Shown: one piece after another, positions 2,482-22,299 of the stretch
How positions within the stretch are numbered: the stretch's first letter is position 1
Layout: each line of letters opens with the position of its first letter
Virus record (IMG/VR): IMGVR_UViG_3300027800_000326
Coordinates: 1-22,429 of that record
From: a virus
DNA length: 22,429 nt
Strand: one strand, 5' to 3'
Program-made: the position numbers and the translations under genes
The notes under the pieces: generated by a model
The model's database searches: none
Told to the model about the DNA's origin: nothing
The model's input: the letters and a program-made list of their open reading frames with translations, nothing else

Positions 2482-2533
2482 GGGACAAGTCTATTTATAT
2501 AGACTAAATATGAATAGACCTGTCCCATTTTTT
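2482..2533. terminator. Inverted repeat acting as probable bidirectional terminator
   Basis: Arms GGGACAAGTCTATT (2482-2495) and AATAGACCTGTCCC (2513-2526) pair over 14 bp with one mismatch around a 17-base loop. On the plus strand an A and six Ts follow; on the minus strand AATTTT follows. It lies between the convergent 89-residue gene and the defence-like operon. The TGGGGACA end also resembles repetitive hairpin elements, so a mobile REP-like origin is an alternative. Confidence 0.55.
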
Positions 2534-2616
2534 ATGGATATATGTGTTTTGTCACCTGAGTGCAGCCACGAGGGGAATATACCTTGTATGGGTTGAGAAT
2601 GATATGAAAAAAGAAG

Positions 2617-4458: not shown

Positions 4459-4479
4459 TTGAATAATCCTATTCCTTGG

Positions 4480-6966: not shown

Positions 6967-6971
6967 TGAGT

Positions 6972-8285: not shown

Positions 8286-8337
8286 TTATAGTACTTTCCA
8301 GCGTTTAATGAGAGATTTATTTATTGAAGATATGAGT

Positions 8338-8366
8338 TATATAACCATAATATAGAACTTTAGCAA
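8338..8366 (-). promoter_or_regulatory. Sigma70-type promoter for the methylase operon
   Basis: On the minus strand TTGCTA (8366-8361) and TATATA (8343-8338) are 17 bases apart. The methylase ATG at 8285 lies 52 bases downstream. No competing promoter of similar quality was seen for this operon. Confidence 0.55.
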
Positions 8367-8507
8367 TTCTAAAAAATACATTGCGTGGAAAAGAGGGGGA
8401 CAGATTTGTTTTACAGTGCAAGATTGATTTAAAGAGTTATGTTCACCGTTAGTTCTCTTTGATGTAATCGTTTTTTTAAATGCCATATAATAAGCAATAC
8501 AAATATA

Positions 8508-8536
8508 TTGACAATAAATCAACATAGCTTTATATT
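8508..8536 (+). promoter_or_regulatory. Near-consensus promoter abutting the brnT start codon
   Basis: TTGACA at 8508-8513 and TATATT at 8531-8536 with a 17-base spacer. Transcription would start about seven bases after the -10, at or within a base or two of the brnT ATG at 8543, predicting a leaderless mRNA. The TA complex would be expected to repress here by binding over the promoter. Confidence 0.7.
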
Positions 8537-8542
8537 TTCTGC

Positions 8543-8836
8543 ATGACTAATAAAACTCACTTTGAATGGGATGAACACAAAGATAAGACCAACCAGGAAA
8601 AACATGGCGTCTCATTCGCTTTGGCTCAATCAGCTTTTTTAGACCAGAACCGTATTATCTTGGAGGACTTGAACCATAGTGCCGATGAACAAAGATTTTA
8701 TTGTCTGGGCAAGATCTCTGACGGGATTTTGACTGTAAGATTTACTTATCGCTCTAATACAATCAGAATCCTCGGTGCTGGATACTGGAGAAAGGGTAAA
8801 AAAATCTATGAAAAAGAAAATAGAATACACAGATGA
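8543..8836 (+). CDS. brnT: BrnT family toxin (type II TA)
   Basis: 97 residues, typical BrnT length. Family landmarks are visible: FEWDEHKDKTNQEKHGVSF at residues 8-26, then HSADEQRFYCLG, LTVRFTYR and a C-terminal IRILGAGYWRKGKKIYEK in the place of the usual RIISAR-A-K-E-R-x-Y block. BrnT is a RelE-fold ribonuclease toxin in the cytoplasm, neutralised by BrnA. The start is fixed by homology to the FEWDE opening; no Shine-Dalgarno precedes it and the promoter's -10 ends six bases before the ATG. It overlaps the brnA start by 29 bases. The TA pair lies between the defence-like operon and the phage-like element. Confidence 0.9.
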   Translation: MTNKTHFEWDEHKDKTNQEKHGVSFALAQSAFLDQNRIILEDLNHSADEQRFYCLGKISDGILTVRFTYRSNTIRILGAGYWRKGKKIYEKENRIHR

Positions 8837-9038
8837 ACCTATGGACAACGTGAAGGTGATATCCGATTTCTTGCCATCTCCTGAAGAGTTGGTCTTAAAA
8901 GATCAAACTGTGAAGATTACACTCTCATTGAGCAAGTCCAGCGTTGATTTTTTTAAGAAAGAGGCAAAAAAGTATAACACCCAATATCAAAAAATGATCC
9001 GTCGCCTTCTGGATGATTATGCAACTCATCAGGCATAA
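8808..9038 (+). CDS. brnA: BrnA family antitoxin (type II TA)
   Basis: 76 residues from the ATG at 8808, chosen over an upstream in-frame ATG at 8775 because AAAGGG lies about 11 bases before it and the MKKKIEYTDEP opening fits BrnA. The N-terminal 35 residues bind toxin in this family; the C-terminal VKITLSLSKSSVDFFKKEAKKYNTQ and MIRRLLDDY segments look like a ribbon-helix-helix DNA-binding domain. It neutralises BrnT and autoregulates the pair. The last residues include YATHQA. The gene overlaps the end of brnT, so translation is coupled. Confidence 0.85.
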   Translation: MKKKIEYTDEPMDNVKVISDFLPSPEELVLKDQTVKITLSLSKSSVDFFKKEAKKYNTQYQKMIRRLLDDYATHQA

Positions 9039-9103
9039 GAGACTTTGAAGCTAATAAGCCTACCCTCTTCAACTCTTTCAACCAGGAAAGAGTCTATGCA
9101 GCC

Positions 9104-9370
9104 TCATTGTTGTTTTATCTGAATCATTTCCACACTCTTTATCTGCATGTTCAGATGCCTGAGCACACACAGATCATTAAGACATTTATGATACCTGACT
9201 CTTGCTCCATCATCCCAGGGCTTGGTAGTTATAATTTTGGTTTTCAGGCCACAAATCGGGCAAATAGCTCCTGAGTAAGAAGTATATTCAACCCCTTGTT
9301 CAGCTATACTCTGTACTTTTTTTATTACTGCTATCACAGCGCTTGTATGGCCCATATCCCCTCCAATCAT
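9104..9370 (-). CDS. Ogr/Delta-like phage zinc-finger protein
   Basis: 88 residues from the ATG at 9370, four bases after the large-terminase stop, with GGAG eight bases upstream; an alternative ATG at 9355 gives 83 residues. The core is C-x2-C-x22-C-x4-C, beginning ICPICG and ending YHKCLNDLC, exactly the spacing of P2 Ogr and P4 Delta, which activate late-gene promoters with host RNA polymerase. The C-terminal stretch (VLRHLNMQIKSVEMIQ) is shorter than in Ogr. It is the last gene of the minus-strand operon. A Com-like translational regulator or a generic zinc ribbon are alternatives. Late activation is family inference; the cysteine spacing is seen. Confidence 0.7.
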   Translation of the reverse strand: MIGGDMGHTSAVIAVIKKVQSIAEQGVEYTSYSGAICPICGLKTKIITTKPWDDGARVRYHKCLNDLCVLRHLNMQIKSVEMIQIKQQ

Positions 9371-9374
9371 TGTC

Positions 9375-11354
9375 TCAACTCCAGAAATCCCCACCACCTG
9401 TGAATGGATTTTCAACAACCTCTTTTTTCCTGACCACAACCTCCTGACTGGCTTCCAGAAGCAGGTTAACCCCACCGCCCGGCCACTCCCAATCCGCTAC
9501 AATGGAGGCCATGCACTCGCAGTCAAGATAGTGGTTTGCCGCACTGGAACTCTTTTGCATCCACTTTTCAACCCCGCGGTCATCAATCTGCTTCTCTTCT
9601 GCCAGGATCTGCTTTGCATAACTCTCATCAGTATCAGCATGAAGGAAAGCGCCACCAGGCAACCCCTCCATTGCCTTTTCCAGACGCATGAAGAACATAT
9701 CCTTGAGCTTGTCAGTATCAAGCAGAATATTGCGCATACCAGCTCTTAACGGTTTGCCTGATGGAGTTTTGTTCAGAGGGTTTCCAATTCTCATTTTTGA
9801 CGGCAGAGGGTTGGAAGAGCCCTTAACACCCCAGACCCTGCACCCCATGCCATACCCCATCCGGCTCTGTAGCCACAGATATGTCTCTTCAGTTGAGGAT
9901 ACGTTGGAGGAGTATTTGCCTCCGCCAGTGTCAATTGCCGCTCTCCAGATCCCGGAAATATGGCCACACCCATCAACCGGATATCTTTTTTCAAACAGCA
10001 GTTGATCAACATCTGCCCAGGAGTCGAGATACCCGTAATCAACCAGCCAGGATGTGTAATCCTTTGCCCAGGCTCGCACAACAAACCAGAACCCGTGTTT
10101 CTGTACATCAATTCCGGCTGTAAGGGCCACTGCTTTTGACGGTACTGTCTGACGGGCAAGAGATGTGCAGCACTGGAGAATATCGCTGTATTCAGCAGTC
10201 ACAACCACGTTTTTCCACGGTTCAGCAGCATAATTGTTCCGAAAATCCCTCAGTTTGATCCTGTTTTTCTGCCCACGCAGAAAAGCAGCAGCACTTTCCG
10301 ACAGACTGACAAAGAAAGAGATCCATGCAGGCAAAAGAAAACCCACTTTTTTAGGGGCATATGCCTGCATATATGCCGGAACAGTCAGATTAAACTTGCC
10401 TCTGGAACGCCACTCTCCGGCTCTTACTGCCCGATTTCTCACCTCATCATCCCATTTCGCCTGGCAGAACTGACACTCGTACCAGGCAAGCAGCTTTGAC
10501 TCCACGGTTTCCGGATCTGCCTCTCCACCTTCCGGCCATTTTATCTGCTCAAAGACCATCACCTGATGCTGGCCACAGTGCGGACACTTGGCATAAAAAT
10601 CAAAGATCACCTGAGCTTCAGTGTTAAGGGCCTGCCAGATTGGCCCTGTTTCCACAGACGGGGTGGAGAGCTTCCAGATTTTAGCCTTTCCACGTCTTCT
10701 GTATGTGGTTGTCCTCTTCTCTCCAAGGGAGATCGGGTCAGACTCTGTTTTTGATGCTGCCGAAGGGTATTTGTCTGTCTCATCAAAGACAACATACCGG
10801 ATAGGGTCAGATGCCAGACTTGTAGCTGAGTGAGCCCACCCGATTGAGATGGATGTGTGCTTTAAAGAGAGTCCAAGGTTTGTCTCATCGTTCACAGCTC
10901 CGGTCATCAGCCGCCTGAGCCTCGGGCTCTCTTTGAACATGGGGATCACCCTTGTTCTGAGCTGCTTTTTTGCAGATGATTCATTAGGGTAAACATACCG
11001 TACCGGCCCAGGCTCCCGGTCAGTGCGCTTGCCAATGCAGTTATGGACAGCTTCGGATCCTCCTGACTGAACGCATTTGCACAGAATCACTGTCTGCACA
11101 CACTCGTAATCAGCAGCATCCATGATATCTACCAGGTACGGGGTGACAATGTTCTTCCATGGCCCCTTCATCTCCGATTCTGACACATACCGGTACTTTT
11201 CTGCCCAATCGCTGGTTTTCATGGATTTGAGCTTTCTCAATATCCGCTTTTCAGCAAATGAGAGTGAGAATTTCAAAGGTTTGCTGCCCTGTTCCCTGAT
11301 CAGGTTGACGTAGGCTTTTGGCATCCATGACGGTATTTTTACACTGAGTTGCAC
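9375..11354 (-). CDS. terL: Phage terminase large subunit, GpA family
   Basis: 659 residues, the usual GpA length. It packages phage DNA: an N-terminal ATPase translocates and a C-terminal nuclease cuts. The ATPase region shows CKCVQSGGSEA (K93 to about 103) where GpA proteins carry their P-loop-like motif, and the Walker B VVFDET with D191-E192. A CPHCG and CQFC pair forms the family's zinc finger at about residues 257-310, and AGIDVQ with D416 opens the nuclease domain. The canonical P-loop lysine position holds serine; lambda gpA likewise has an atypical motif (KSARVGYSK) using an earlier lysine. It starts four bases downstream of the small subunit. No portal or capsid gene follows. Confidence 0.92.
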   Translation of the reverse strand: MQLSVKIPSWMPKAYVNLIREQGSKPLKFSLSFAEKRILRKLKSMKTSDWAEKYRYVSESEMKGPWKNIVTPYLVDIMDAADYECVQTVILCKCVQSGGSEAVHNCIGKRTDREPGPVRYVYPNESSAKKQLRTRVIPMFKESPRLRRLMTGAVNDETNLGLSLKHTSISIGWAHSATSLASDPIRYVVFDETDKYPSAASKTESDPISLGEKRTTTYRRRGKAKIWKLSTPSVETGPIWQALNTEAQVIFDFYAKCPHCGQHQVMVFEQIKWPEGGEADPETVESKLLAWYECQFCQAKWDDEVRNRAVRAGEWRSRGKFNLTVPAYMQAYAPKKVGFLLPAWISFFVSLSESAAAFLRGQKNRIKLRDFRNNYAAEPWKNVVVTAEYSDILQCCTSLARQTVPSKAVALTAGIDVQKHGFWFVVRAWAKDYTSWLVDYGYLDSWADVDQLLFEKRYPVDGCGHISGIWRAAIDTGGGKYSSNVSSTEETYLWLQSRMGYGMGCRVWGVKGSSNPLPSKMRIGNPLNKTPSGKPLRAGMRNILLDTDKLKDMFFMRLEKAMEGLPGGAFLHADTDESYAKQILAEEKQIDDRGVEKWMQKSSSAANHYLDCECMASIVADWEWPGGGVNLLLEASQEVVVRKKEVVENPFTGGGDFWS

Positions 11355-11358
11355 TGTT

Positions 11359-12177
11359 TTAAGCCTCCTCTATCTCAAGATCAGAGCCTGATTCATCCAT
11401 TGAATAATCAGAATCAGTCTCTGTGATTGAATCATCAGCATCAGGATCAGGGTCAAACATGAAATCAAGAGAAAAGCTGTCAGTGTGAGCCATCTTGTTC
11501 ATCATGAAATCCAGTTTGCGCTCCACAAAGTTCTTGGCATTATTGATTTTGCGGATATCTCCACCCATCATGTGACAAAGATCAGCCATGATCATGTCCA
11601 TAAGCTGCCTGAAGTTGATATCAAGCACAGTGAGGATCCCGACCATCCTCATGTCCACCTCATCCTTGAGCACATATTTGCCCTGATCCCGCTCCCTGGA
11701 GAACTTGAGCTTTTCTATCTGCTCACGGAGCTTCTGCCTCTCCAGGTCTGCTTTATCTGCCTGGATGTCATTAAGATCATCCAGGTTTGCATTTGCCCGC
11801 TCAAGATATGTGGCAGCATAGGCACGAGCTTCTGCCTCTGGCACTGTGCCGTCTTTGTTGACAGCTATCAGCCCCTTGTCTTTATCGCGGTATATTCTGC
11901 TTTTGCTCACCTTGAAGCCTGCTTTTTTCAGATGTGAGCAGGCTTCAAGCAGGCTGGAAAAATGATTCATCTTTCCCCCTGCAAAATATTTTTGTTCAAG
12001 CCATTCTTTTTTTTTGGATAATGCTTCATTGGCAGAATCATGGTTTTTCTTGTTTGCCTGTGTTGGAGACTCCTGATAAGATCTTAAAGTTTTAAGAGTT
12101 GCATTTTTAAATATTTTCAGCTCGACAGATTCTTCTTCAGTAACAACCTTTAAAAGCTCCTCTATTGACTTTGTCAT
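11359..12177 (-). CDS. Probable terminase small subunit
   Basis: 272 residues directly upstream of the large terminase. A winged-helix-like segment at about residues 75-105 (SHLKKAGFKVSKSRIYRDKDKGLI) resembles the DNA-binding module of Nu1-like small terminases, followed by a long charged coiled coil (about 125-170, ADLERQKLREQIEKLKFSRER) and a helical region. The last 30 residues are a striking acidic D/S/E-rich tail (FDPDPDADDSITETDSD onward). The ATG directly abuts the TGA of the methyltransferase upstream with no intervening base. Role: recognition of the packaging site and recruitment of TerL. Assignment rests on position plus fold impression. Confidence 0.7.
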   Translation of the reverse strand: MTKSIEELLKVVTEEESVELKIFKNATLKTLRSYQESPTQANKKNHDSANEALSKKKEWLEQKYFAGGKMNHFSSLLEACSHLKKAGFKVSKSRIYRDKDKGLIAVNKDGTVPEAEARAYAATYLERANANLDDLNDIQADKADLERQKLREQIEKLKFSRERDQGKYVLKDEVDMRMVGILTVLDINFRQLMDMIMADLCHMMGGDIRKINNAKNFVERKLDFMMNKMAHTDSFSLDFMFDPDPDADDSITETDSDYSMDESGSDLEIEEA

Positions 12178-13521
12178 TCATAGCCTCTTAATTAAATTTG
12201 CCTTTTTACCCGTATAGTTCTCCCATCTCCGGATAATCACATCACAGTATTCCGGAGTCAGCTCCATTCCATAACAACGTCTGTCCAGGGCCTCACACGC
12301 TATCAACGTGCTCCCTGAACCAAGAAAGCAGTCAAACACAACATCACCCACCGCGGAAGAATTCCGTACCGCTCTTTTAACAAGCTCCACAGGTTTCATG
12401 GTTGGGTGCTCTTCGGATCTGTTCGGCTTTGGAAAATACCAGACTGTCTCCATCCCCTCATCCTGGTATTCAAGTTTGTAATCAGACACAGATAAAATCA
12501 CAGAGCCGTCATTTGTGTTAATGTTGACTGTCTTTTTATCTCCATGATCCTCAACAACAATGGATGGAATCTGCTGATACATGACAGAATCCTTGTTGCG
12601 TCCTCCATTCCAGAAATGACGCCCCTTTTTATTTCCATACAGAATAGGCTCGTGGCGGTAATGATAATCTCCCCTGGAAAAAACAAACTGCCCCTTCACC
12701 CACATCAAACACTGACGAAAAATCAGCCCGTTTGCAGCAAGAGGCTCCCGGAATGGCTTCCACATACTGTCAGCATGACAAATATAAAATGCTCCGCCAT
12801 CCACCAGGCTTGATGCAATATTCTGATAGACACTGTTCATGAAAGAATAGAAGGCATCAGGAGCCATGGAGTCATTCTTGATTTTTTCTCTATTCTGCTT
12901 GTTTCCACCAGAATAGTTGACGTTATATGGAGGATCAGTAAAACACATGCTGCATTGATGGCCATTAAGCAGTACAGAGACATCAGAAGGCTTTGTTGAA
13001 TCACCGCACATCAGCATGTGTCCCCCAAGCTGATACAGATCACCAGGCAGGACACTGCACTCCTCTTTCACATCAGGAACATCATCCTGATCAGTAAGGC
13101 CTGCAGAATCTTCCAGGCCATTAAGCAGGCTGTTTATATCTGCCTCAGAAAAACCTGGAATATCCAGCAGCCCGAAATCATTAATTTTCAGATCCAGCAG
13201 CTCTTCAAACAGCAGTTTTTCATCCCAGTTGCTCTCACCCACTTTGTTGTCAGCCATTCTGAATTTTCTGACCTGCTCAGGTGACAGGCTATCAAGCATG
13301 ACTGTGGGAACATGATCAAGCCCAAGCTTTACAGCAGCCAGGTATCTGCCATGGCCAGCTATAATCGTATGGCTTTTATCCAGGAGGATGGGCACATTAA
13401 AACCATACAGGGATATGGACTTTGCAATTTCTTCAACCTGTTTGGACGGATGCTTTTTTGCATTGCCTGAATACGGAGTTATCAACTCAAGCTGGATATT
13501 TTTGATTTCAGGTGATGACAT
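12178..13521 (-). CDS. ParB-domain DNA methyltransferase fusion
   Basis: 447 residues. Residues about 8-130 are a ParB/Srx-like domain (LITPYSGNAKKHPSKQVEEI, then IIAGHGRYLAAVKLG), followed by a beta-class amino-methyltransferase: catalytic D196-P-P-Y199 first, then HPTMKPVEL and the SAM-binding FLGSGST with G401 and G403. DPPY suggests N6-adenine methylation, though cytosine N4 is possible. Such fusions are recurrent in phages and prophages and probably protect the genome from host restriction or mark it for packaging. It overlaps the upstream gene's stop by one base (TGATG) and touches TerS with no gap, so it is part of the packaging block. Confidence 0.9.
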   Translation of the reverse strand: MSSPEIKNIQLELITPYSGNAKKHPSKQVEEIAKSISLYGFNVPILLDKSHTIIAGHGRYLAAVKLGLDHVPTVMLDSLSPEQVRKFRMADNKVGESNWDEKLLFEELLDLKINDFGLLDIPGFSEADINSLLNGLEDSAGLTDQDDVPDVKEECSVLPGDLYQLGGHMLMCGDSTKPSDVSVLLNGHQCSMCFTDPPYNVNYSGGNKQNREKIKNDSMAPDAFYSFMNSVYQNIASSLVDGGAFYICHADSMWKPFREPLAANGLIFRQCLMWVKGQFVFSRGDYHYRHEPILYGNKKGRHFWNGGRNKDSVMYQQIPSIVVEDHGDKKTVNINTNDGSVILSVSDYKLEYQDEGMETVWYFPKPNRSEEHPTMKPVELVKRAVRNSSAVGDVVFDCFLGSGSTLIACEALDRRCYGMELTPEYCDVIIRRWENYTGKKANLIKRL

Positions 13522-13967
13522 CAGGCTTCTCCAAGATATTTCTCAAGTTCCAAAACTCGTTCTAACTCTAAGTCATCACACAAAAAAAATTTTTTGTTTT
13601 TGATAATGTCTTTTAAGCAGGCCTTATGATAAACGATACTCGCTCTATAATTTGGATCTCTTTTTTTAAAGATTTCATGATAACTACGACTACTATCATC
13701 AAAAGCTGGATTTTCAAGTTGCAATTTTTCGTAAAGATTAGGATTCAATCTCGAGCAAAGACGATTAAACTGACGGCTCAAAGTTTCTATTTTAGAGTAA
13801 CCAAGCTCTCTGGAAACCCTAGAATAAGATTCCCCTCCAAAAATACGTAGAAAAATAGAATATTTTTTTTCCACTATGACGATTTTCTTTTTTGCTTCAT
13901 CAGAAGAACCGTACCTGATCTTTATTTTTGTAATATCTTCTTCTTTTAATCTTTGGAATTTATTCAC
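13521..13967 (-). CDS. HTH-containing phage hypothetical protein
   Basis: 148 residues. The start is GTG at 13967, overlapping the upstream TGA by four bases (GTGA). Residues about 39-75 (FLRIFGGESYSRVSRELGYSKIETLSRQF) look like a helix-turn-helix of the sigma-like or phage antiterminator type, suggesting DNA binding. The flanks are lysine- and glutamate-rich and contain no cysteine cluster. More AT-rich than the adjacent primase and methyltransferase, which may mean a separate acquisition. It could be a late-gene or packaging regulator; I do not recognise the family. Confidence 0.65.
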   Translation of the reverse strand: MNKFQRLKEEDITKIKIRYGSSDEAKKKIVIVEKKYSIFLRIFGGESYSRVSRELGYSKIETLSRQFNRLCSRLNPNLYEKLQLENPAFDDSSRSYHEIFKKRDPNYRASIVYHKACLKDIIKNKKFFLCDDLELERVLELEKYLGEA

Positions 13968-14167
13968 TTGAGATCCTCTGAGCTGTTCTGAATCTTTTTG
14001 ATCCTTGCGTTCATAGCCTTCAGCATTGTTGTTCTCAGCCCGTGTTTCAGCTCATATTCCAGAGCCTCCCTCAGCACTGTGAGTTGAGTTTCAGCCTTAA
14101 TTGTTGCAAGTCCATCCTGCACTGATGTGCAGCAGATCCTCTGAGCGGTTGTTAATTGCGGCATCAT
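13964..14167 (-). CDS. Small phage hypothetical protein (67 residues)
   Basis: The start is set at the MMPQ double ATG (14167) because AGGGAG lies eight bases upstream and this removes a long overlap with the primase. The longer frame opening at 14227 would run into the primase gene. The protein is mostly helical with residues TTAQRICC near the N-terminus and a basic C-terminal helix (MLKAMNARIKKIQ). It starts five bases after the primase stop and overlaps the next gene by four bases, so it belongs to the same operon. Function unknown; size and position fit a small replication-associated phage protein. Confidence 0.6.
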   Translation of the reverse strand: MMPQLTTAQRICCTSVQDGLATIKAETQLTVLREALEYELKHGLRTTMLKAMNARIKKIQNSSEDLK

Positions 14168-14171
14168 GTTT

Positions 14172-15656
14172 TTATCTCCCTGCCAAAAAGTTACCACGAT
14201 GAATATAGTCATGCGGGTGAGTATCAAGAAACTCCGCCACCTCCCCGTTCCAGAAAACCAGTGAAGAGAGCTGCTGGATCACAGCATCATTGTTGATGTT
14301 GTCCTGGAATGCAGGAGCCACAACAATCTTTGTCCTGTTTTTTGTGGCCAGAATTTTCACAGGGTATCTGTCCAGCAGGGCTTTCAGCTCTGCTACAGCT
14401 CTGGGGAACCCCGGGATCTCAATCAATTCTGCCTGCTGAGTAACCGGAAGCTGCTGGAGTTCCGGTTTTTCAACATCAACTGAGGGCTCCTGGGGTAGAT
14501 CGATCGGTTGATTTGCCTTGAGAGAAGCCTTGAATCTGGCATCTCTGAATCTCATCGTGAGCACTGGAGGCAAGCCAGCAAGCACCCACTCAAGCAGATT
14601 AACCCCTGCCTTGTATGCATCTCCAGGATCTTTTCCCACTGGAACCGACCATCTCCGCACTTTCTCGAACTCATCTGACCACCATTTGCCTGCTTTTTTA
14701 CCTGCTTCATCGAAATCCAGAGCGTTGAGGATTCTCAGCGCCCCTTGCAGAACAGGATAGGACTCTCGGCACGGCTTTGTCTGTGCAGATCCCAGAGCCA
14801 GCACTCCAACTGCTCCACCTGCAATCCTGGCAAGAAGCATGGCATCAAGCTCTGATTCCACGATCACAAAAGCCCGTCTCTCTCTGAAAATCAGCATGGG
14901 AGCCATGCAGGAGCCAGGCAGAACATAATACCTGACATCCTGCGGGCTGTTTATGTCGGCATCTGGCCGTCTTATCCTGATGCGCCGGACAATCTCCATG
15001 CCATCACTGTCGGTGCCCAGGTAGGGGATCACCACGCCTCTGGGTATCCAGAGCATCTTTTTACTGCCATTCTCTTTCAGAATGGTGGGTAAGCCCCAGG
15101 ATTCACGGGGTCTGAAAGCGGAGTTTTTCCCCTTTTCCCCAGGACACCACCCCAGCCTGAATATCTTTACTGCCTCAAGATCAAGCCCTCTTTCTGCCAG
15201 AATTTTAAGCTGCTCAGGGTTCTCCAGTAACTGACCATGTGCCCAGGTGACCAGCTTGCCAGCCTTAATCTGCCAGGTCTCGGGAGGCTCTTCATAGTGT
15301 GTTGGCTGAAAAGGCTCTTTTGCCCCTGATCCTGAAGTGCCTGCAACAGAAGCAGGAGAGATCAATGCCATACTCTGCTTAGATGTGTAGCCTTCCGGCA
15401 GCTCCCGACCCGCAGCCTTGAACGCATCTGGGTAGCTCATGCCATGGAAATCAACATAAAACTGCACCAGATCCCCGGCCTTCTCGCACCCCCTGCACCA
15501 ATACGACCCGTCAACCCTCAGATCCGGCCAAACATGGAAGCGGTCATTTCCACCACACCCAGGGCAGGCCCCGGTGTATTCCGCCCCCCGTTTCTGACTC
15601 ACTGATGTTTTTTTCAGCGTGATTCCTTTGTCTGCTGCTGCATCAAGTACGTTCAT
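14172..15656 (-). CDS. Phage DNA primase with CHC2 zinc finger and TOPRIM domain
   Basis: 494 residues from the ATG at 15656, chosen because AAGGAG lies six bases upstream; a further ATG at 15677 lacks a site. The zinc ribbon uses C31, C34, C54 and C57 (CPGCGG and WCRGC). The TOPRIM core follows with FVIVESELDAM and LNALDFDEAG, supplying the metal-binding acidic residues. It would make RNA primers on phage DNA. Unlike T7 gp4 or P4 alpha it has no fused helicase; the helicase is the upstream gene. After about residue 400 the C-terminal region is of unclear function. It sits downstream of the iteron-like region, which probably also carries its promoter. Confidence 0.9.
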   Translation of the reverse strand: MNVLDAAADKGITLKKTSVSQKRGAEYTGACPGCGGNDRFHVWPDLRVDGSYWCRGCEKAGDLVQFYVDFHGMSYPDAFKAAGRELPEGYTSKQSMALISPASVAGTSGSGAKEPFQPTHYEEPPETWQIKAGKLVTWAHGQLLENPEQLKILAERGLDLEAVKIFRLGWCPGEKGKNSAFRPRESWGLPTILKENGSKKMLWIPRGVVIPYLGTDSDGMEIVRRIRIRRPDADINSPQDVRYYVLPGSCMAPMLIFRERRAFVIVESELDAMLLARIAGGAVGVLALGSAQTKPCRESYPVLQGALRILNALDFDEAGKKAGKWWSDEFEKVRRWSVPVGKDPGDAYKAGVNLLEWVLAGLPPVLTMRFRDARFKASLKANQPIDLPQEPSVDVEKPELQQLPVTQQAELIEIPGFPRAVAELKALLDRYPVKILATKNRTKIVVAPAFQDNINNDAVIQQLSSLVFWNGEVAEFLDTHPHDYIHRGNFLAGR

Positions 15657-15685
15657 GTTTGGCTCCTTCTGGTACAAACTCTCAC

Positions 15686-15961
15686 TTTGGAGGGTTTGGA
15701 AGATTTTGGAGGGTTACTTATAAACCTTCCAAAGGAATAAACTACTGTTTTCTTTATTTTTTATTTACTCTTTGGAAGATTGGAAGGTTTTTTATATAAT
15801 TTTCAAAAAATAAAAATAAAAAAAAGATATTAATATATAGTAAAAAAAACCTTCCAACCCTCCAAACTGGCTATCCTACATCTTTTATATTAAAAGATTT
15901 CAATAAGTTAACTTTCTGGAAGATTGTCTGGAAGATTGTGGAGGGTTTTACAACCTTCCAG
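15686..15961. repeat. Iteron array with AT-rich core, candidate replication origin
   Basis: At least eleven copies of a degenerate TGGARGRTT motif in both orientations. Forward copies have TGGA at 15688, 15697, 15707, 15773, 15782, 15917, 15929 and 15939; inverted copies lie at 15723-15733, 15848-15857, 15856-15866 and 15952-15961. The copies at 15771-15791 and 15844-15866 form inverted arms differing at two positions and enclose a core of almost only A and T (about 15792-15843). The array fills the gap between the helicase and primase genes. Iterons plus a melting region beside replication genes is the classic layout of phage and plasmid origins; an operator array is the alternative. Confidence 0.7.
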
Positions 15962-15970
15962 ACTCTAAAA

Positions 15971-17554
15971 TCATGGAAACATCTGTGTATTATCCAAAAT
16001 TCCTACCCCGTAATACTTCATTGACCCCTCTTTACGCTTCTCGAAGCGCTTCCCAAGCCATCCGGAGAAGCTTTTTTGCTTTGGGATCTTGTTTGAGACA
16101 TTGGTTTTCCACCACTCCTCGAACACCTTATATATAGCTGTTGCCCCCACAGAGTAGTTTTCCCCGACAACGCAGCACTCATCAATAAAATCAGCGATTG
16201 TGTCCTCATCACGCTGATACTCGTCCACAGCATCCAAAACAGCAGTCGGCGGCGCCACCCCCATAACCTGCCAGGAGAGGCACCCTCTGACTATCCAGGC
16301 AAGGATGCCCGGCAATTCTGCCTCCAGCTTTGCGGATAGATATGGATCTGCACGCCTCTCATATGAGTTTTTCGGCGTCCATGCTTCATCCTCATCTACC
16401 GTAGGCCCCACAAAAGATAGCTCAAACGGAAATAAAACCATTCTTGCCCAAAACGCATAATCATCTGCAGGGGCATGGGGTTTATGGTTGGTCAGCAGAA
16501 ACAGGGTGTGTGACGGCAGGAATTGTACCTCATGCTTATCATGAGGACTTCTGCCCGTGAGTGTGTCATTGCCTGTAATCCATTTTGACCTAGATGGGGA
16601 GATCCGGCAGCCATCATCAGTCTCAGATGCGAATGCCATTCTTAATCCCCTGAGAGTCATGATCTCAGGAGTAGGCCCTGAAGAGTTCTGTTTGAACTGA
16701 TCCAGCAGCATCTCTGAACGAATTGCTCCGGCAAGATGGCCAAAAGCTTTGGAGAGTGTCTCCACTATTATTGACTTTCCGTTTCTCCCCCTGCCCGTCA
16801 TGACAACCAGGATGCTCTGCACCACTTTTCCTACAGCTGCATAACCACAGACCCGCTGAAAGCAATCTACAATGGGCTGTTTTTCTGAAAAAATCTCCAG
16901 GAGACTCTTCTCCCAAAGCGGACAAGGGGCATCAATGCCGTTCCACTCAACCGGAGAGGCCTTCAGGAGATAATCTTTCTGACGACCAGGCTCAAGCTCT
17001 CCAGTCCTCAGATCAATTACCCCGTTTTTGCATGCCAGCAACCATGGTTTGGCATCAATCTCATCTCCCTTAATTGCCAGGGCATCGCTGCTTGTGTGTG
17101 CGAACCTCAGACACTTGACTCGCCTTGTGTCACTCCTGAGCAGCTTGACACGCTGGTTCAGCTTTGCTCTTGTGCTCTTGAGCTGACCGGCCCTCCCGGA
17201 TGAGTCCTCCGCTGCTTCAAGTTTTGACATCTCCCTGGAGATCTGGTTAGCCTCGCCCTGGTACACCTGGGCAACTCCCTCCACAGACGCCAGGGCATCA
17301 CCCATAATATCCATGATCCAGTGGTGGCCATCCCACCTCATCCAGCAGTCAGCAGATTTGTTGAACACGAAATGGCTCCGGTAGAGGCGCTTGAAAAGAT
17401 TACCGTCCCCGAATTCATTCTCACGCAGGCACTGCAGGATGAACTCGGAGTCCGGAACTCCATCTTTTTCGGCATCGTCTATCTGGCCATTTTCCTCAAT
17501 TTGCCTGGCCATGACCGCCGATTTGATATCAAGCTCCTCTGGTTGCTGGTTCAT
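15971..17554 (-). CDS. P4/D5-type SF3 replicative helicase
   Basis: 527 residues from the ATG at 17554. That start overlaps the stop of a short upstream ORF (ATGA), as elsewhere in this operon; a GTG opening at 17695 is possible but has no ribosome site. Walker A is GRGRNGKS with K260, after the D5-N-type region (SDALAIKGDEIDAKPWLLAC, NGVIDLRTGEL). Downstream LTGRSPHDKHEVQFLPSHTLFLLTNHKP is the SF3 sensor/motif C region, and the C-terminus carries a winged-helix-like domain (YKVFEEWWKTNV). It unwinds phage DNA, probably assembling at the adjacent repeat-rich region. The primase is separate, immediately downstream, whereas P4 alpha fuses both. Confidence 0.88.
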   Translation of the reverse strand: MNQQPEELDIKSAVMARQIEENGQIDDAEKDGVPDSEFILQCLRENEFGDGNLFKRLYRSHFVFNKSADCWMRWDGHHWIMDIMGDALASVEGVAQVYQGEANQISREMSKLEAAEDSSGRAGQLKSTRAKLNQRVKLLRSDTRRVKCLRFAHTSSDALAIKGDEIDAKPWLLACKNGVIDLRTGELEPGRQKDYLLKASPVEWNGIDAPCPLWEKSLLEIFSEKQPIVDCFQRVCGYAAVGKVVQSILVVMTGRGRNGKSIIVETLSKAFGHLAGAIRSEMLLDQFKQNSSGPTPEIMTLRGLRMAFASETDDGCRISPSRSKWITGNDTLTGRSPHDKHEVQFLPSHTLFLLTNHKPHAPADDYAFWARMVLFPFELSFVGPTVDEDEAWTPKNSYERRADPYLSAKLEAELPGILAWIVRGCLSWQVMGVAPPTAVLDAVDEYQRDEDTIADFIDECCVVGENYSVGATAIYKVFEEWWKTNVSNKIPKQKSFSGWLGKRFEKRKEGSMKYYGVGILDNTQMFP

Positions 17555-17763
17555 ATTTCTCTGTAACCCTCTGTAATCAAGGATATTGTTTCCCGCTTCC
17601 CTCCCATTTTCAGATTTAAAATCGCGAAAAGATCGAGCCTTGCCCGCCCGTATAGAAGGAGGCCCCAGAAGGACCCGCACTGTTTTGTACAGCACAGGCC
17701 AGCAAGGTTTGATCTTTGGCTGGATCTCTTATCCGAGGGGGTGCGGGGGAGGTCAGTTATCAT
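17551..17763 (-). CDS. Short ORF coupled to kinase and helicase (70 residues)
   Basis: Easily overlooked. Opening at the ATG at 17763, inside the last eleven bases of the kinase gene, it ends in a TGA whose first two bases are shared with the helicase ATG (ATGA at 17551-17554). This dovetailing repeats the four-base overlaps seen throughout the operon and explains the gap between kinase and helicase. The peptide has a CCTKQC cysteine cluster and a basic, hydrophobic middle (FWGLLLYGRARLDLFAI). The ribosome site is weak (AGG). It might instead be a translated spacer; no family is recognised. Confidence 0.4.
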   Translation of the reverse strand: MITDLPRTPSDKRSSQRSNLAGLCCTKQCGSFWGLLLYGRARLDLFAILNLKMGGKRETISLITEGYREI

Positions 17764-18250
17764 AGACAACCTGGCAATTGAGCACTTCATAGAGCTCAAT
17801 CAGTGTAAACTCCACCTTCTGCCTGAACTCATCATCATGTTCAGCTCTGATTCCGTCTGGAAAGCAGAAGGGGTTGTTGTCAATAGTCTTGAAAATGATC
17901 TTGCTGTAATGCTTCAGGTGATGTCTGGCCATCTCCACCATGGCATACGCCAAAGTATCAAAGCCAGCTACCAGAGTGTAAGCAATGGAGTCCACAATGG
18001 ATCGGTCAGATACGACGATATCAAAGCGGGAGAGGTACTCAAGCTCAGCTTTGATCTGTGCTGTGAAGATCCACATCTGGCTCTCCAGTGTGGTCTTCTG
18101 ATTGATGGGGTATGGAGACATTGTTGCTGGCTCCATAAGGATTGTGATTGATTTTTCTGGGCAGGAGAGCTTTAAACTCTCTGCCTGCTTCAGGGCACTG
18201 GTTGTCTTGCCTGTACCATGTGTGCCTGAAAATGCGATAATATGGCCCAT
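17753..18250 (-). CDS. P-loop nucleotide kinase-like ATPase
   Basis: 165 residues. Walker A GTHGTGKTT at residues 9-17 with K15, and a second acidic motif IVVSDRSIVDSIAY near residues 80-95, matching thymidylate/deoxynucleoside kinase-like or NadR/Ttd14-type AAA proteins found in phages, where the DRS motif contacts the substrate. It would phosphorylate a nucleotide or nucleoside, perhaps to supply DNA precursors. GAGGAGG five bases before the ATG is an excellent ribosome site. It precedes the helicase in the operon. The C-terminal part lacks an obvious lid arginine pair, so the substrate is not determinable by eye. Confidence 0.75.
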   Translation of the reverse strand: MGHIIAFSGTHGTGKTTSALKQAESLKLSCPEKSITILMEPATMSPYPINQKTTLESQMWIFTAQIKAELEYLSRFDIVVSDRSIVDSIAYTLVAGFDTLAYAMVEMARHHLKHYSKIIFKTIDNNPFCFPDGIRAEHDDEFRQKVEFTLIELYEVLNCQVVYDN

Positions 18251-18293
18251 ATTGGCCTCCTCAATTCTTTATATTCAAAAGGTTATTGTTGCG

Positions 18294-18336
18294 CACCACC
18301 GCTAAAACCCCCCTTTGTATAAAAAAACTACGCCGC
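18294..18336. repeat. Copy 1 of a duplicated ~40-bp element
   Basis: CACCACCGCTAAAAC (18294-18308), a variable ten-base middle, then AAAAAACTACGCCGCT. The same two blocks in the same order and orientation recur at 20962-21000. It lies in the leader between the HTH/zinc-ribbon gene and the kinase. Possible replication, regulatory or recombination site. Confidence 0.6.
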
Positions 18337-18350
18337 TATAATCGTTCTGA

Positions 18351-18650
18351 TCAGAATTCTGCCCTCTGATTTCCTTTGTGATAACAGTTTGAACACAACC
18401 GTGTTAACAGGACTCCGTTTTTCAACGGTTTTTTAGGGACTGGTTGTAGTCCACAACATATGCAGAGATTTTTAATCTTCTTTTTTTGAGGTTTTTTCCC
18501 CTGCTCAAAAACAAAGCCTCCTTGCTTTGCACGGACATAAACAGTGTTGATTCCACAATGAATCTTTTGCGCGATTTCAGGCACGGAAAAGCCTTGATCC
18601 AACATCGGTATGATTTTTTCTGCTGTAATATCAGGTCTTGCTACTGGCAT
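18351..18650 (-). CDS. HTH/zinc-ribbon phage regulator
   Basis: 99 residues. Residues 15-50 (MLDQGFSVPEIAQKIHCGIN, then VYVRAKQGGF) form a helix-turn-helix of the resolvase/MerR-like kind; the C-terminus carries a zinc ribbon, CICCG and CSNC spaced by about 20 residues. A basic linker (KKPQKKKIKN) joins them. Likely a DNA-binding regulator of the phage operon. AAAGGAG lies about eight bases before the ATG, and a short gap separates it from the 153-residue gene upstream. Being early in the operon it may control the replication or packaging genes downstream. Confidence 0.7.
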   Translation of the reverse strand: MPVARPDITAEKIIPMLDQGFSVPEIAQKIHCGINTVYVRAKQGGFVFEQGKKPQKKKIKNLCICCGLQPVPKKPLKNGVLLTRLCSNCYHKGNQRAEF

Positions 18651-18702
18651 CTCAAAATCTCCTTTGTTTTTAATGTGCTATAAAAAAACAGGACTTAAGC
18701 TG

Positions 18703-19164
18703 CTAATCATCCAGCAGCGTCAAATCCTGCATTATGTCCTCAATAGCCAGACGAGCCAGCTCTCTGCGTTTGGCGTTGCTGGCCTCGGGATCTCTCATAG
18801 CTGCGGTGTATGCGGCCAGAGACTCGTAATTGTCCAGCAGCTCCTCCTCCAGAGTTGCCTTGTCTGGCGTGCACTCATCCTCATCCGGGATGAGAGTGCA
18901 TCTAACTATCCTTGCAAGATAATCCACGCCTGAGCGAGCGTGTTCAACCTGCCCGCGCATCATGAGCTTTGTAAGCATATATCCAAGGCGGGTCATTGGG
19001 CAGGCTGCGGTTGTGGCGGTGGTACTTGGATCAGCAGACCATTTTTCCACAGCCCTCTCTCCAACATTCCAGATTTTCACAATCTGGCTCTTAGACATGT
19101 GGTACATACACCCGGAAAACCACTCCCAGGGGGTAACCGGTGTCGAGGTCGGTTTACGGTTCAT
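18703..19164 (-). CDS. Early-operon phage protein with HTH-like N-terminus
   Basis: 153 residues, second gene of the minus-strand operon, overlapping the Cro-like gene's stop by four bases (ATGA) with AGAGGA about nine bases upstream. Residues 12-50 (WEWFSGCMYHMSKSQIVKIW, then GERAVEKWSADP) look like an HTH region; the C-terminal half is helical and acidic, ending IEDIMQDLTLLDD. I read it as a phage regulatory protein of the early region, possibly CII-like in role, but no named family is recognised. The residue pattern (MTRLGYMLTKLMMRGQVEHA) suggests oligomerising helices. Confidence 0.65.
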   Translation of the reverse strand: MNRKPTSTPVTPWEWFSGCMYHMSKSQIVKIWNVGERAVEKWSADPSTTATTAACPMTRLGYMLTKLMMRGQVEHARSGVDYLARIVRCTLIPDEDECTPDKATLEEELLDNYESLAAYTAAMRDPEASNAKRRELARLAIEDIMQDLTLLDD

Positions 19165-19391
19165 TTTCGGTTTTCCTCTTTTCCTTCTGGTTTTGGGATG
19201 TTGGCATCAAAAAATAATTCTAACTGGAGAGGAGATGCATATCTCCACCATTCTATGCCTTTTTCTGGAAATATTTTTGAAAGCCTTTCTGCAAAAGGCC
19301 ATGAAATTTTACGTTTCCCCTTTAGAATCACACAAAGGGTTGGTGGAGGTACTCCTAAAAATCTTGCTTTGTATGCTTGTGATGTTTTCAT
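19161..19391 (-). CDS. Small Cro-like HTH protein, first gene of lytic operon
   Basis: 76 residues from the ATG at 19391 (MKTSQAYKARFLGVPPPTL); a longer start at 19415 overlaps the palindrome AGCATATGCT and is less likely. Residues 1-45 resemble the lambda-repressor-like HTH fold (ARFLGVPPPTLCVILKGKRKISWPFAERLSKIF), where the second helix reads the DNA. No Shine-Dalgarno is evident, so translation may be inefficient or leaderless. It lies directly opposite the CI-like repressor across an AT-rich region full of palindromes, the arrangement of a lambda-type switch. Confidence 0.7.
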   Translation of the reverse strand: MKTSQAYKARFLGVPPPTLCVILKGKRKISWPFAERLSKIFPEKGIEWWRYASPLQLELFFDANIPKPEGKEENRK

Positions 19392-19403
19392 GCTGTATGA
19401 GGT

Positions 19404-19539
19404 AGCATTAAGCATATGCTAATGTCAATAGATTTTGTATTTTTATATTAAACAAAAACTATTAATATAAGACAAATAACTAATATTATTAGTGATTTTA
19501 TTGTTTGTCTTTTTCTCCAAAGGGGCTATAATTAGCAAT
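19404..19539. promoter_or_regulatory. Divergent immunity-switch region with candidate operators
   Basis: AT-rich divide between the Cro-like and CI-like genes. Candidate operators are the perfect palindrome AGCATATGCT (19411-19420) with a further AGCAT half-site at 19404, and ACTAATATTATTAGT (19479-19493), nested in weaker arms GACAAATAA (19471-19479) and TTGTTTGTC (19501-19509). On the minus strand TTGACA (19428-19423) may be a -35, but its -10 is poor. The promoters are therefore not fixed; the palindromes are seen directly. Confidence 0.6.
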
Positions 19540-20112
19540 ATGGTAATTAGAAAAACATATAACGATCCACTGGCGGCAGCTCTTAATTATTGTCTGTGGC
19601 AAACAAAGACAAAACAGCAGGAGCTTGCAATTGCTGTGGGATATAAAAACAGAAATATGATATCTGCTATACTTGCTGAATTATCACCTGGTTCAGAACC
19701 CAAGCGGAGAGCTATTGCATCGTTTTTTGGATATACATATGAGGATTTTCTTCAATTAGGGCTGGATATTATCAAAAAAAACAAAATAGATATGGATAGG
19801 GAATATCTATTAGAAGCTATGAATGCCAGAGCGGATGCTATTATTTATCAACAGGAAAAAGCAACTTCTACTCTGCCGCCAAAAACGAATATCAGTGAGA
19901 TTGCTGATACCGCAAGACTCAGACATCAAATTGTTATTGAAGGCTTTGAAGATAAAGAAAGAGCTATTAGACTAAATGAGAAACTTGTTCAGCTTGAAAA
20001 AAGAGATCCAGATAAACTTAAAAGTCTTGAAGATATGTTAAATGGATGGCTTGCGATAGCTCCTCCTGAAGCGCCCAAAAAAACGGGAACAACGAACAAT
20101 CAGGAGAGTTGA
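19540..20112 (+). CDS. CI-like phage repressor with HTH domain
   Basis: 190 residues from the ATG at 19540 (MVIRKTYNDPL). The N-terminus, residues about 10-70, is an HTH of the XRE type (ALNYCLWQTKTKQQELAIAV, then RNMISAILAELSPGS). There is no S24 peptidase domain: the C-terminus is a charged helical region, so induction cannot be by RecA-stimulated self-cleavage. AAAGGGG is about 14 bases from this ATG, rather far; the ATG at 19492 is an alternative with a hydrophobic extension that looks spurious. The TGA overlaps the next gene's TTG start. It presumably maintains the lysogenic state at the divergent region. Confidence 0.75.
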   Translation: MVIRKTYNDPLAAALNYCLWQTKTKQQELAIAVGYKNRNMISAILAELSPGSEPKRRAIASFFGYTYEDFLQLGLDIIKKNKIDMDREYLLEAMNARADAIIYQQEKATSTLPPKTNISEIADTARLRHQIVIEGFEDKERAIRLNEKLVQLEKRDPDKLKSLEDMLNGWLAIAPPEAPKKTGTTNNQES

Positions 20113-20447
20113 TCAACTTTGCTCTTGTAAAACCCGAATATAATACCCACCTGGTCAACGCTGAGGGTGTAATTCTTGATACTACGGTCAATAAAGGAAA
20201 TTCAGTTATAGCTCAAAAGGTTATCGGCACACTTGCCACTTCTTACATTCATCCTGATGATGCAATCCATTTTAGTAAAACATTGGGAAGAGCAATCTAT
20301 GATGGTAGGATGGAGTGCTGTGAATATAGAATTGCGAATCAGCACTTTAAAGCCAAATTTGAAAAGATAGCTGTGGATAGGGTGAGGATTGTTGAATGGA
20401 ATATCACTGGGTTGGATGTGGATCGGGTTTGGCAGTTGCCTTGGTGA
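20109..20447 (+). CDS. PAS-like protein coupled to the repressor
   Basis: 112 residues, starting with TTG at 20109 that overlaps the repressor's TGA by three bases; GGAG lies five bases upstream. The sequence resembles a single PAS fold: VIGTLATSYIHPDDAIHFSK, then ECCEYRIANQHFKAKFEKIAV and IVEWNITGLD match the PAS HPDD helix and final strands. PAS domains sense ligands, redox or partners. With no effector domain of its own it probably acts on the co-translated repressor, an uncommon arrangement for a prophage. HicB follows after 19 bases. Confidence 0.65.
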   Translation: MINFALVKPEYNTHLVNAEGVILDTTVNKGNSVIAQKVIGTLATSYIHPDDAIHFSKTLGRAIYDGRMECCEYRIANQHFKAKFEKIAVDRVRIVEWNITGLDVDRVWQLPW

Positions 20448-20466
20448 GGGGAAAAGGAGATTGAAA

Positions 20467-20676
20467 ATGAACACATACACAGCAATAATAAAACAAACTG
20501 ATAACTGGTGGATTGGCTGGATAGAGGAAGTCCCAGGTGTCAATTGCCAGGAAGAATCATATGAAGCTCTTATAAATTCATTGAAAGAGGTACTGACTGA
20601 GGCAATTGACTTTAACCGGCAGGACGCTATCATTGCCGCTGGGGACGATTATCAGGAAGAGTGCATAGCATTATGA
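20467..20676 (+). CDS. hicB: HicB family antitoxin
   Basis: 69 residues from the ATG at 20467, chosen for AAGGAG seven bases upstream and because the sequence then opens MNTYTAIIKQTDNWWIGWIEEVPGV, the RNase H-like HicB fold start (Y-x-x-I-x-x-x-D-x-x-W-I-G-x-x-x-E-x-P-G). It ends without an added DNA-binding domain, so any autoregulation would need the complex or another site. Its TGA overlaps the hicA start (ATGA). Antitoxin-first order reverses the canonical hicAB order but is common in phage-borne pairs. Confidence 0.85.
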   Translation: MNTYTAIIKQTDNWWIGWIEEVPGVNCQEESYEALINSLKEVLTEAIDFNRQDAIIAAGDDYQEECIAL

Positions 20677-20861
20677 AGCGCAAGGAATTCCTGCAATACA
20701 TTAGAAGTAAGGGTTGCGAACTCTTGAGAGAAGGAGGTAGTCATTCATGGTGGCACCATCCTGAGTCTAAACGAAGGTCTTCTGTTCCGAGGCACGCTGA
20801 AATTGATGATCTGTTGACCAAAAAAATTTGTAAAGATTTAGGTATCAGTTGGATACGGTGA
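20673..20861 (+). CDS. hicA: HicA family toxin
   Basis: 62 residues from the ATG at 20673, which overlaps the hicB stop. It shows the double-stranded-RNA-binding-like HicA pattern: MKRKEFLQYIRSKGCELLRE, then GGSHSWWHHP with the conserved catalytic histidine, RSSVPRH and the final LTKKICKDLGIS. HicA cleaves mRNA and is neutralised by HicB. Length is typical. The pair lies between the immunity genes and the integrase and may stabilise the element after integration. Confidence 0.9.
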   Translation: MKRKEFLQYIRSKGCELLREGGSHSWWHHPESKRRSSVPRHAEIDDLLTKKICKDLGISWIR

Positions 20862-20961
20862 TTGAGTTTGACCGTTCCCTTGGCAAATAGAGATTTTTAT
20901 TCTTATATTTTAAGGTTAAAAGCTCTTGACATTAATGATGTTTTTTTGTATGAGAAAAAGA

Positions 20962-21000
20962 CACCACCGCTAAAACTCCATGATAATAAAAAACTCCGCT
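20962..21000. repeat. Copy 2 of the duplicated ~40-bp element
   Basis: CACCACCGCTAAAAC (20962-20976), a variable middle, then AAAAAACTCCGCT; the first 15 bases are identical to copy 1 at 18294. The right end overlaps the terminator hairpin stem. Confidence 0.6.
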
Positions 21001-21029
21001 GAGGCTACTTTAGCCACAGACGGAGTTTT
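20990..21029 (+). terminator. Rho-independent terminator after hicBA
   Basis: AAAACTCCG (20990-20998) pairs with CGGAGTTTT (21021-21029), with an inner GGCT/AGCC pairing. It lies between hicBA and the HTH gene. The T-run is short, so partial read-through is possible. Confidence 0.6.
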
Positions 21030-21047
21030 ATGTTTATGGGAGTTACT

Positions 21048-21419
21048 ATGGAACAGATTGTTGATATAACAGGACTCGCACAAGTTCTGCACTGCTCTGA
21101 CCGAACGCTTGAAAAGCAATGGCAGCAGTATCCTCATTTTTTTATAGGGGAGGGCAGGGACTTAAGAGGCGCAAGGTTTGACGTTTGTGATGTTATTGAC
21201 TTTCTGAAACAAAGGGATTATAGCAATGCCATATCCAGACAAGAAAAAGCGAACTTGGATAGGACAAATAAGAATAAATGGAGTCAAAAGAAAAAAAACC
21301 GGATTCCCGACAAAATCGGCAGCAACAGAATGGGAACGGATGACAAGTCAAGAAATATTGTATCCGAGTCAAGATCCGGATGTATTGAAGAGTTCGCACG
21401 CCATTTTGGAATATCTTAA
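21048..21419 (+). CDS. AlpA/excisionase-like HTH protein overlapping int
   Basis: 123 residues from the ATG at 21048, chosen for GGGAG five bases upstream over the ATGs at 21030 and 21036. The N-terminal 65 residues (DITGLAQVLHCSDRTLEKQW, then FDVCDVIDFLKQRD) form an MerR/AlpA-like winged helix as in excisionases and phage terminase-Nu1-like regulators. After about residue 60 the frame is read over the start of the integrase gene in a different frame for 194 bases and becomes low complexity and basic. Either the overlap is real or the C-terminal half is an incidental extension. Position just before int suggests a directionality factor. Confidence 0.6.
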   Translation: MEQIVDITGLAQVLHCSDRTLEKQWQQYPHFFIGEGRDLRGARFDVCDVIDFLKQRDYSNAISRQEKANLDRTNKNKWSQKKKNRIPDKIGSNRMGTDDKSRNIVSESRSGCIEEFARHFGIS

Positions 21420-22299
21420 ATACTGCGACACACGCCAGAAACCTCACACCTGCAAATACAAAACCTTCATTCTCAAGGGGCTTCTTGAACACCGGAACTG
21501 TGCTGAAATTCCTATATCTGAAATTACTCAGATTTTCATTGAATCTTATCTTGACCATAGATTTGCATCTGGGGGTGGGAAAACAGCAAACAGAGACATG
21601 AGAGAAATAAAAACATGCTGTAACTGGCTTTTGCAGCGTGATTATATAAATACCAATCCTTGCAAAAATATTGTACAGTATAAAGAGGATATGTTTTCAA
21701 AATATGTTCCTCCAGCAGAAGATATTCAAGCTGTTCTTGCAGTTTCAAATTCTATGGAAGCAGATATCATAAGAGTGGCATATCACTCTCTTGCAAGATC
21801 AGGAGAAATCCGTCAGATGAAATTTTCAGACTGTGATTTTCTAACACGCTCAGTGAAAATTTATACTGCTAAACGTAAAGGAGGATCTCTTGAATATGAT
21901 ACAATATCTATGAACCAATCCCTTTATGAAATACTTGACAGAAGATATCAGCAGCACCTGCCAAAATGTGATTGGATTTTTCCTGGAGAAAATGGCCAAC
22001 AATTATCCAGGGATAGTATAAATAAGATAATGCCCAGACTCTGCAAAAAGGCGGAGGTAAAAGCTTTTGGATTGCATAGCATCCGGCATCATGTGGCAGC
22101 TCTGCTTACTACTCGACTAACGCTCATTGAAATTCAAAAAGTATTGAGGCATAAACGAGCAACAACCACTGATATTTATCTGCGGAGTTTGATAAAGATT
22201 GACACAAAAGGGATTCATGTCCTTGATGAACTGGAAAGTCAGTCAGTTTGCAATGGTGATAATATTGTACCCTTTAATAAAATAGTGAACGAAAGATGA
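21226..22299 (+). CDS. int: Tyrosine recombinase integrase
   Basis: 357 residues. The N-terminal 40 residues (KKRTWIGQIRINGVKRKKTG) are an AP2-like arm-binding domain, then a SAM-like core-binding domain (about 60-150), then the catalytic domain with R191, H284-x-x-R287, H309 and Y318, the complete tyrosine-recombinase set apart from the strand-turn lysine near residue 215 (TAKRKG). It would integrate and excise the element at an att site. AAAGGG lies nine bases before the ATG, which overlaps the preceding HTH gene by 194 bases in another frame. It is the last gene of the element on the right. Confidence 0.92.
   Translation: MPYPDKKKRTWIGQIRINGVKRKKTGFPTKSAATEWERMTSQEILYPSQDPDVLKSSHAILEYLKYCDTRQKPHTCKYKTFILKGLLEHRNCAEIPISEITQIFIESYLDHRFASGGGKTANRDMREIKTCCNWLLQRDYINTNPCKNIVQYKEDMFSKYVPPAEDIQAVLAVSNSMEADIIRVAYHSLARSGEIRQMKFSDCDFLTRSVKIYTAKRKGGSLEYDTISMNQSLYEILDRRYQQHLPKCDWIFPGENGQQLSRDSINKIMPRLCKKAEVKAFGLHSIRHHVAALLTTRLTLIEIQKVLRHKRATTTDIYLRSLIKIDTKGIHVLDELESQSVCNGDNIVPFNKIVNER

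Follow-up and report, generated by a model that had tools for sequence, protein, structure and literature searches.

What is the function of a repeat-crowded gap between a helicase gene and a primase gene, and which protein reads its repeats? We addressed this in a 22,429-base stretch of DNA (positions 1-22,429 of IMG/VR virus record IMGVR_UViG_3300027800_000326), analyzed at full length and hereafter called the window. The original prediction counted at least 11 copies of TGGARGRTT in the gap, four of them inverted. Exact matching bears this out: the window holds 13 copies, 12 of which lie within 15688-15960 (8 forward, 4 reversed). In 100 shuffles of the whole window the word occurred 1.58 times on average and at most 6 times; when the A/T-rich gap alone was shuffled (n = 200), the mean was 3.2 and the maximum 7, compared with the 12 observed. 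The copies surround an A/T core as follows.

15686-15961, no strand: whole iteron/AT-core/iteron array, the proposed origin, with 12 of the window's 13 exact copies
15688-15715, plus strand: left outer iterons, three in tandem (starts 15688, 15697 and 15707; spacing 9 and 10)
15723-15731, minus strand: left outer reversed iteron
15773-15789, plus strand: left inner tandem pair, pointing toward the core (starts 15773 and 15781; spacing 8)
15790-15847, no strand: A/T core, the proposed melting site (58 bp)
15848-15864, minus strand: right inner tandem pair, facing the left pair (starts 15848 and 15856; spacing 8)
15917-15947, plus strand: right outer iterons (starts 15917, 15929 and 15939; spacing 12 and 10)
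15952-15960, minus strand: right outer reversed iteron

As had been claimed, no gene lies in the array: the helicase-primase gap contains no ORF of at least 60 aa. The facing arms also proved real (15771-15796 and 15841-15866, 88% complementary over 26 nt). The core between them had been described as nearly pure A/T and about 50 bases long; the composition held (94.8% A/T), and the length, at 58 bp, did not. By nearest-neighbour energy, no 58-bp stretch in 9001-22000 is less stable than this core, and across the whole window a single 58-mer is. A spacing of 9-10 bases, thought to place the copies on one face of the DNA, does not describe the inner pairs, which run 8 bp from start to start, a step of roughly three quarters of a helical turn that leaves adjacent inner copies on different faces. 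GC skew, suggested as a check, follows the coding strand without a turn at 15.8 kb and lends the origin no support.

The array does stand between a helicase and a primase, as predicted. Along the direction of transcription the helicase gene is upstream of the array, which follows directly 3′ of its stop at 15971, and the primase gene is downstream.

15971-17695, minus strand: D5/P4-type superfamily 3 helicase, the proposed initiator (Pfam D5_N, PF08706, E 2.4e-26)
16016-16093, minus strand: helicase residues 535-560, in the C-terminal winged helix, with the best covariation with iteron letters
16052-16078, minus strand: recognition-type helix, helicase residues 540-548 (model helix 492-500)
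14172-15656, minus strand: primase with zinc-binding domain (Pfam Zn_Ribbon_Prim and CHC2 zinc finger; PHROG DNA primase), starting at ATG 15656, with TTG 15677 also possible

The helicase combines a D5_N with a helicase domain, as do D5_N/P4-type self-loading SF3 helicases, and it matches PHROG primase families with values down to 2.1e-91. Its structure model (pLDDT 93.2 from 65 sequences) resembles ASFV C962R (Z 28.6), vaccinia D5 (28.2), the SaPI5 primase-helicase (27.4 over 402 residues), NrS-1 (20.1) and PriRep1 (14.4). At the C-terminus, residues 470-518 of the model are predicted to fold as a winged helix, with helices followed by a wing. Beyond the primase are encoded a ParB_N-like/methyltransferase protein and the small and large terminase subunits; on the helicase side lie a weak HTH match and an integrase. 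The first of these (12178-13521, between primase and terminase) fuses a weakly matching ParB_N-like domain to an N6/N4 DNA methyltransferase.

We then looked for the same arrangement in relatives. Because single-protein searches for close relatives returned few loci (helicase, no viral and one genome locus; primase, one viral locus), alignment searches were needed. One relative, L005 from a Desulfobacterales assembly, has helicase, an approximately 300-bp gap and primase in the same order as the window, and its gap carries AGGACAGTT-type repeats that face each other across an A/T core; the helicase occurs at E ≤ 1e-60 in 34 of 395 genomes of that assembly's phylum. The full search gave 256 loci, from which we removed 10 without a helicase match, 53 without a primase match and 3 in which the two were not adjacent. 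The 190 remaining gaps reduced to 115 non-redundant gaps of at least 90 bp. One locus with a related primase and no helicase match (L004) was excluded from this set. Portal genes were present in 23 of 25 relatives checked, for which reason we regard the relatives as phages rather than islands.

The original prediction had named homologous elements without the repeats as an outcome that would speak against it. We obtained the opposite result, with arrays in related helicase-primase gaps. The best 8-mer family was unreached in 100 shuffles for 68 of the 115 gaps, and reached in at most 2 of 100 for 82; 47 and 33 gaps, respectively, fell short of these thresholds. Among equal-length segments of helicase genes, used as a control, 1 of 114 passed at 0/100. 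Of the 68 passing gaps, 51 have GGA within their best word. In an earlier set of 84 gaps, a same-strand spacing of exactly 8 bp was observed 66 times against 1.2 expected, and convergent pairs at 66-90 bp were observed 129 times against about 11 expected. Facing tandem quads with a score of at least 42 occur in 37 of the 115 gaps, and 20 shuffled sets yielded none; the cores measure 56-64 bp in 21 of the 37, and 67-80 bp and beyond in the remainder. We dropped the idea that core lengths are helically phased, as overlooking one inner copy would produce apparent steps of 8-9 bp. In 39 of 50 cases the core has a higher A/T content than the remainder of its gap.

A GGA iteron with this geometry could be aligned in register in 61 of the 115 gaps, with variable letters that are chiefly CCA (18), GGG (12, then T), CGA (11) or GGA (6). 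The relatives thus keep the layout, tandem pairs 8-9 bp apart facing across about 60 bp, and change the letters of the repeat. Two gaps hold two complete facing arrays each (L021, gap coordinates 38-309; L123, gap coordinates 43-441) and appear to be duplicated origins.

Arrays of this make also occur where an origin has been annotated. In Lactobacillus phage A2 (AJ251789.2), a rep_origin directly follows a D5/P4-type primase gene and contains ACGGGAGGAT copies, in tandem and facing across an A/T core; the same iteron class is present in three of our relatives (L113, L119 and L146). A2 differs in having a single long primase gene, whose C-terminal part carries the helicase match, and helicase identity is only 29%. 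The A2 rep_origin reportedly rests on an original experiment. Since A2 carries an annotated origin of this make, the kind of origin is not in itself new. Together, the arrays of the same place and geometry in relatives and the annotation in A2 support the original reading, and we assign a probability of roughly 0.87 to this segment being the replication origin of a phage or prophage.

The same data bear on whether the array could instead be an operator, at which a repressor or the helicase would bind the repeats to control the primase and downstream genes, with no part in replication. Its place just upstream of the primase start would allow the array to cover the primase promoter, and many copies would suit cooperative repression. 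Against this, facing pairs held at a fixed distance across an A/T core in many relatives would be superfluous for an operator, and in A2 an array of this kind bears a rep_origin annotation. A search for a sigma-70-like promoter on the minus strand, the only useful direction, found none, although this is a weak test. We consider an operator alone unlikely; operator use alongside origin use is possible.

If the segment is an origin, which protein recognizes it? We compared distances among iteron letters 5-7 with distances in 15-residue protein windows, after removing the overall helicase-plus-primase distance, and retained only loci with GGA iterons in register (43 of 84, later 61 of 115). Among the 43 loci, the best windows fell at helicase residues 528-560 (r up to 0.36, with a permutation maximum of 0.27, n = 300), while the best primase window reached r = 0.22. 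With 61 loci, the best window rose to r = 0.39 against a permutation maximum of 0.20 (n = 100). Helicase residues 535-560, a region chosen after the first covariation result, surpass every one of the 421 windows located elsewhere in the two proteins (r = 0.38; 0/1000 permutations, which ignore relatedness). When the 14 loci with threonine at residue 541 are left out, this region still surpasses all 406 windows (r = 0.28; 0/1000).

The covariation signal leans partly on one clade. With the GGAGGG clade removed from the 43 loci, no window exceeded the permutation maximum; with the 14 T541 loci removed from the 61, the window-wise maximum was not significant (7/100), and helicase 536-550 (0.25) no longer stood above primase 199-213 (0.26). 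The primase value may reflect chance or a contact between primase and origin. Tree-based independent pairs were too few for a covariation test. At residue 541, threonine accompanies G at iteron position 7 in 14 of 14 loci, and lysine accompanies A in 36 of 40; exceptions include the window itself, which has lysine with mixed A/G, and phage A2, which has glutamine. We dropped a one-residue code at this position, as the tree gives only three residue changes and six base changes. Overall, these comparisons make it likely that the helicase, rather than the primase, reads the iterons, through its C-terminal winged helix.

That the repeat letters follow the helicase winged helix, among windows drawn from helicase and primase, also bears on whether the array might serve in partition or packaging, as a centromere-like or a pac/cos site, with the ParB_N-methyltransferase protein or the small terminase as its reader. 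Sites of this sort can take the form of repeat arrays, and both the weak ParB_N match fused to a methyltransferase and the small terminase are encoded nearby. In relatives, however, the position of the array is tied to the 3′ end of the helicase gene, and we regard a site of this kind as extremely unlikely.

A plausible course of initiation at the proposed origin can be outlined. The helicase would bind the iterons through its C-terminal winged helix, assembling on either side of the core, and would melt the A/T core. It could then encircle the strands as two opposed rings that move outward, while the adjacent primase would start new strands, so that the excised circle would be replicated bidirectionally. 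The geometry offers a sequence rule for locating origins throughout a large group of phages and prophages that are uncultured, and the analysis names a protein and a helix as their likely readers.

Several known origins resemble this arrangement. In phage-inducible chromosomal islands (PICIs) of the SaPI and EcCI type, the origin comes directly after the 3′ end of the Rep helicase gene, with two sets of short iterons flanking an A/T-rich region, a layout that the consulted part of the source calls common to no other known bacterial replicon (PMC6092414). The window array is likewise 3′ of its helicase gene with iteron sets on both sides of an A/T-rich region, and the helicase fold matches that of SaPI5 Rep. 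Contrary to that statement, then, the window's family appears from its sequences to share the PICI layout. PICIs are islands that lack phage structural genes and depend on a helper phage for induction; the window's family differs in being viral, judging by the portal genes, and, in the window, in having primase and helicase as separate genes with the origin between them. The SCCmec helicase Cch2, also of D5_N type, binds direct repeats 3′ of its own gene through its C-terminal domain; the excerpts consulted describe only three 5-nt iterons and no facing pairs (PMC7581432).

Among 12 phages and 5 plasmids hand-picked from three match lists, clear arrays were found in A2, AcaML1, Waddlia pWc and a Bacillus glycinifermentans plasmid, with Acinetobacter 4316 borderline. 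For GMA4, LilPharaoh and ZoeJ, GC-rich coding controls score too, or nearly so; Shambre1 and Dubu are weak at best. Amyev, Shady, RR1-A, Ashes, Thermaerobacter, pPL62 and Syntrophotalea showed no array. In a circular 13.7-kb Syntrophotalea acetylenica record (L264, NZ_CP015456.1, 12126-13631), the helicase match is split into three tblastn pieces, no primase is matched and no array follows, and the helicase gene looks broken. Classical plasmid iteron origins of the RepA/TrfA type carry direct iterons of about 17-22 bp; we set this class aside, as the window has 9-bp iterons in facing pairs.

The window array can also be described as a long inverted repeat, enclosing about 58 nt of loop and lying 3′ of a helicase gene, as in archaeal plasmid pRN1, whose 100-bp stem-loop origin is described, in the parts of the sources consulted, with a 21-nt stem and a 58-nt loop (PMC4234260, PMC3869888). 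For phage BIP-1, the same partial source reports that a MEME repeat search gave no origin, and proposes stem-loop recognition (PMC4234260). We re-examined these stems for tandem repeats. The pRN1 stem contains TGGACA twice and the pRN2 stem GGAC twice, and the BIP-1 arms contain TTGCCTCGT twice, in each case 9 bp apart. The origins with facing 9-bp tandem repeats are located as follows.

L278, 285-384: pRN1 stem-loop origin
L277, 58-160: pRN2 stem-loop origin
L280, 135-238: pHEN7 stem-loop origin
L279, 208-311: BIP-1 stem-loop origin

Pooling five hairpin origins, the arms match themselves at lag 9 in 38 of 64 positions; for the remaining lags between 4 and 12 the fraction is 0.19-0.33. None of 20,000 shuffles attained the combined best lag-8/9 score, and four of the five fall individually below 0.015; in the arms of the fifth, pSSVx, the 9-bp period was not found. 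Core lengths in the five are 58, 59, 60, 56 and 60 bp. Like the window array, the origins of pRN1, pRN2, pHEN7 and BIP-1 lie 3′ of an SF3 helicase gene and have 9-bp tandem arms around cores of 58-60 bp. They differ in having inner pairs only, with no obvious outer copies, and an archaeal-type primase domain (according to the available parts of PMC4234260 and PMC3869888); the GGA strand of pRN1 is directed away from the core.

These arms also speak to a hairpin (cruciform) reading of the window, in which the fold of the arms would be recognized rather than the repeat letters. The window's complementary arms could pair, and pRN1 and BIP-1 have been interpreted in this way, at least in the part of the source consulted (PMC4234260). 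A hairpin would not require arms built of 9-bp tandem repeats, as those of pRN1, pRN2, pHEN7 and BIP-1 are, and the outer copies of the window, single or in tandem, fall outside any one hairpin. We therefore hold this explanation to be very unlikely.

A broader proposal, to which we give even odds, is that D5/P4-type helicases of bacterial phages, satellites and archaeal plasmids share a single origin design, in which 9-bp sites stand in two tandem pairs (spacing 8-9 bp) that face each other over a core of about 60 bp. The pRN1 and BIP-1 'hairpins' would then be this design and not rolling-circle hairpins, the length of the core would count over its sequence by fixing how far apart two opposed helicase rings sit, and the recognition helix would code for the three variable iteron letters. 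In the 58-bp loop of pRN1, 3-bp deletions abolished function in 8 of 8 cases, whereas a few single substitutions were tolerated (PMC3869888, as far as consulted). We infer that both results would follow if two facing binding sites had to keep a strict distance. In partial coverage of the literature we found none joining the pRN/BIP-1 hairpin origins with facing iterons; the geometry and spacing rule and the joining of phage, island and pRN origins are what is new here, and the re-reading of pRN1 is relevant to the choice between rolling-circle and theta replication for these plasmids.

Finally, the window itself may be incomplete. To the left of the large terminase gene, G+C content drops from about 0.47 to about 0.31 (1-9100), and the window yielded no match to a portal gene, with the large terminase present. 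This fall in G+C and the missing portal indicate that the structural module is absent from the window, and the window copy may be inactive, as it lacks a portal gene. Region 1-9100 could represent a truncated prophage, a join to a host defence-like region or a satellite carrying a large terminase. Methyltransferase and ATPase genes at 2617-8285 are candidates for such a defence-like region. Two short adjoining ORFs at 8543-9038 resemble a BrnT/BrnA toxin-antitoxin pair. At 20389-20861, a search match identifies a HicA toxin gene, preceded by an ORF that we take to be a HicB-like antitoxin.
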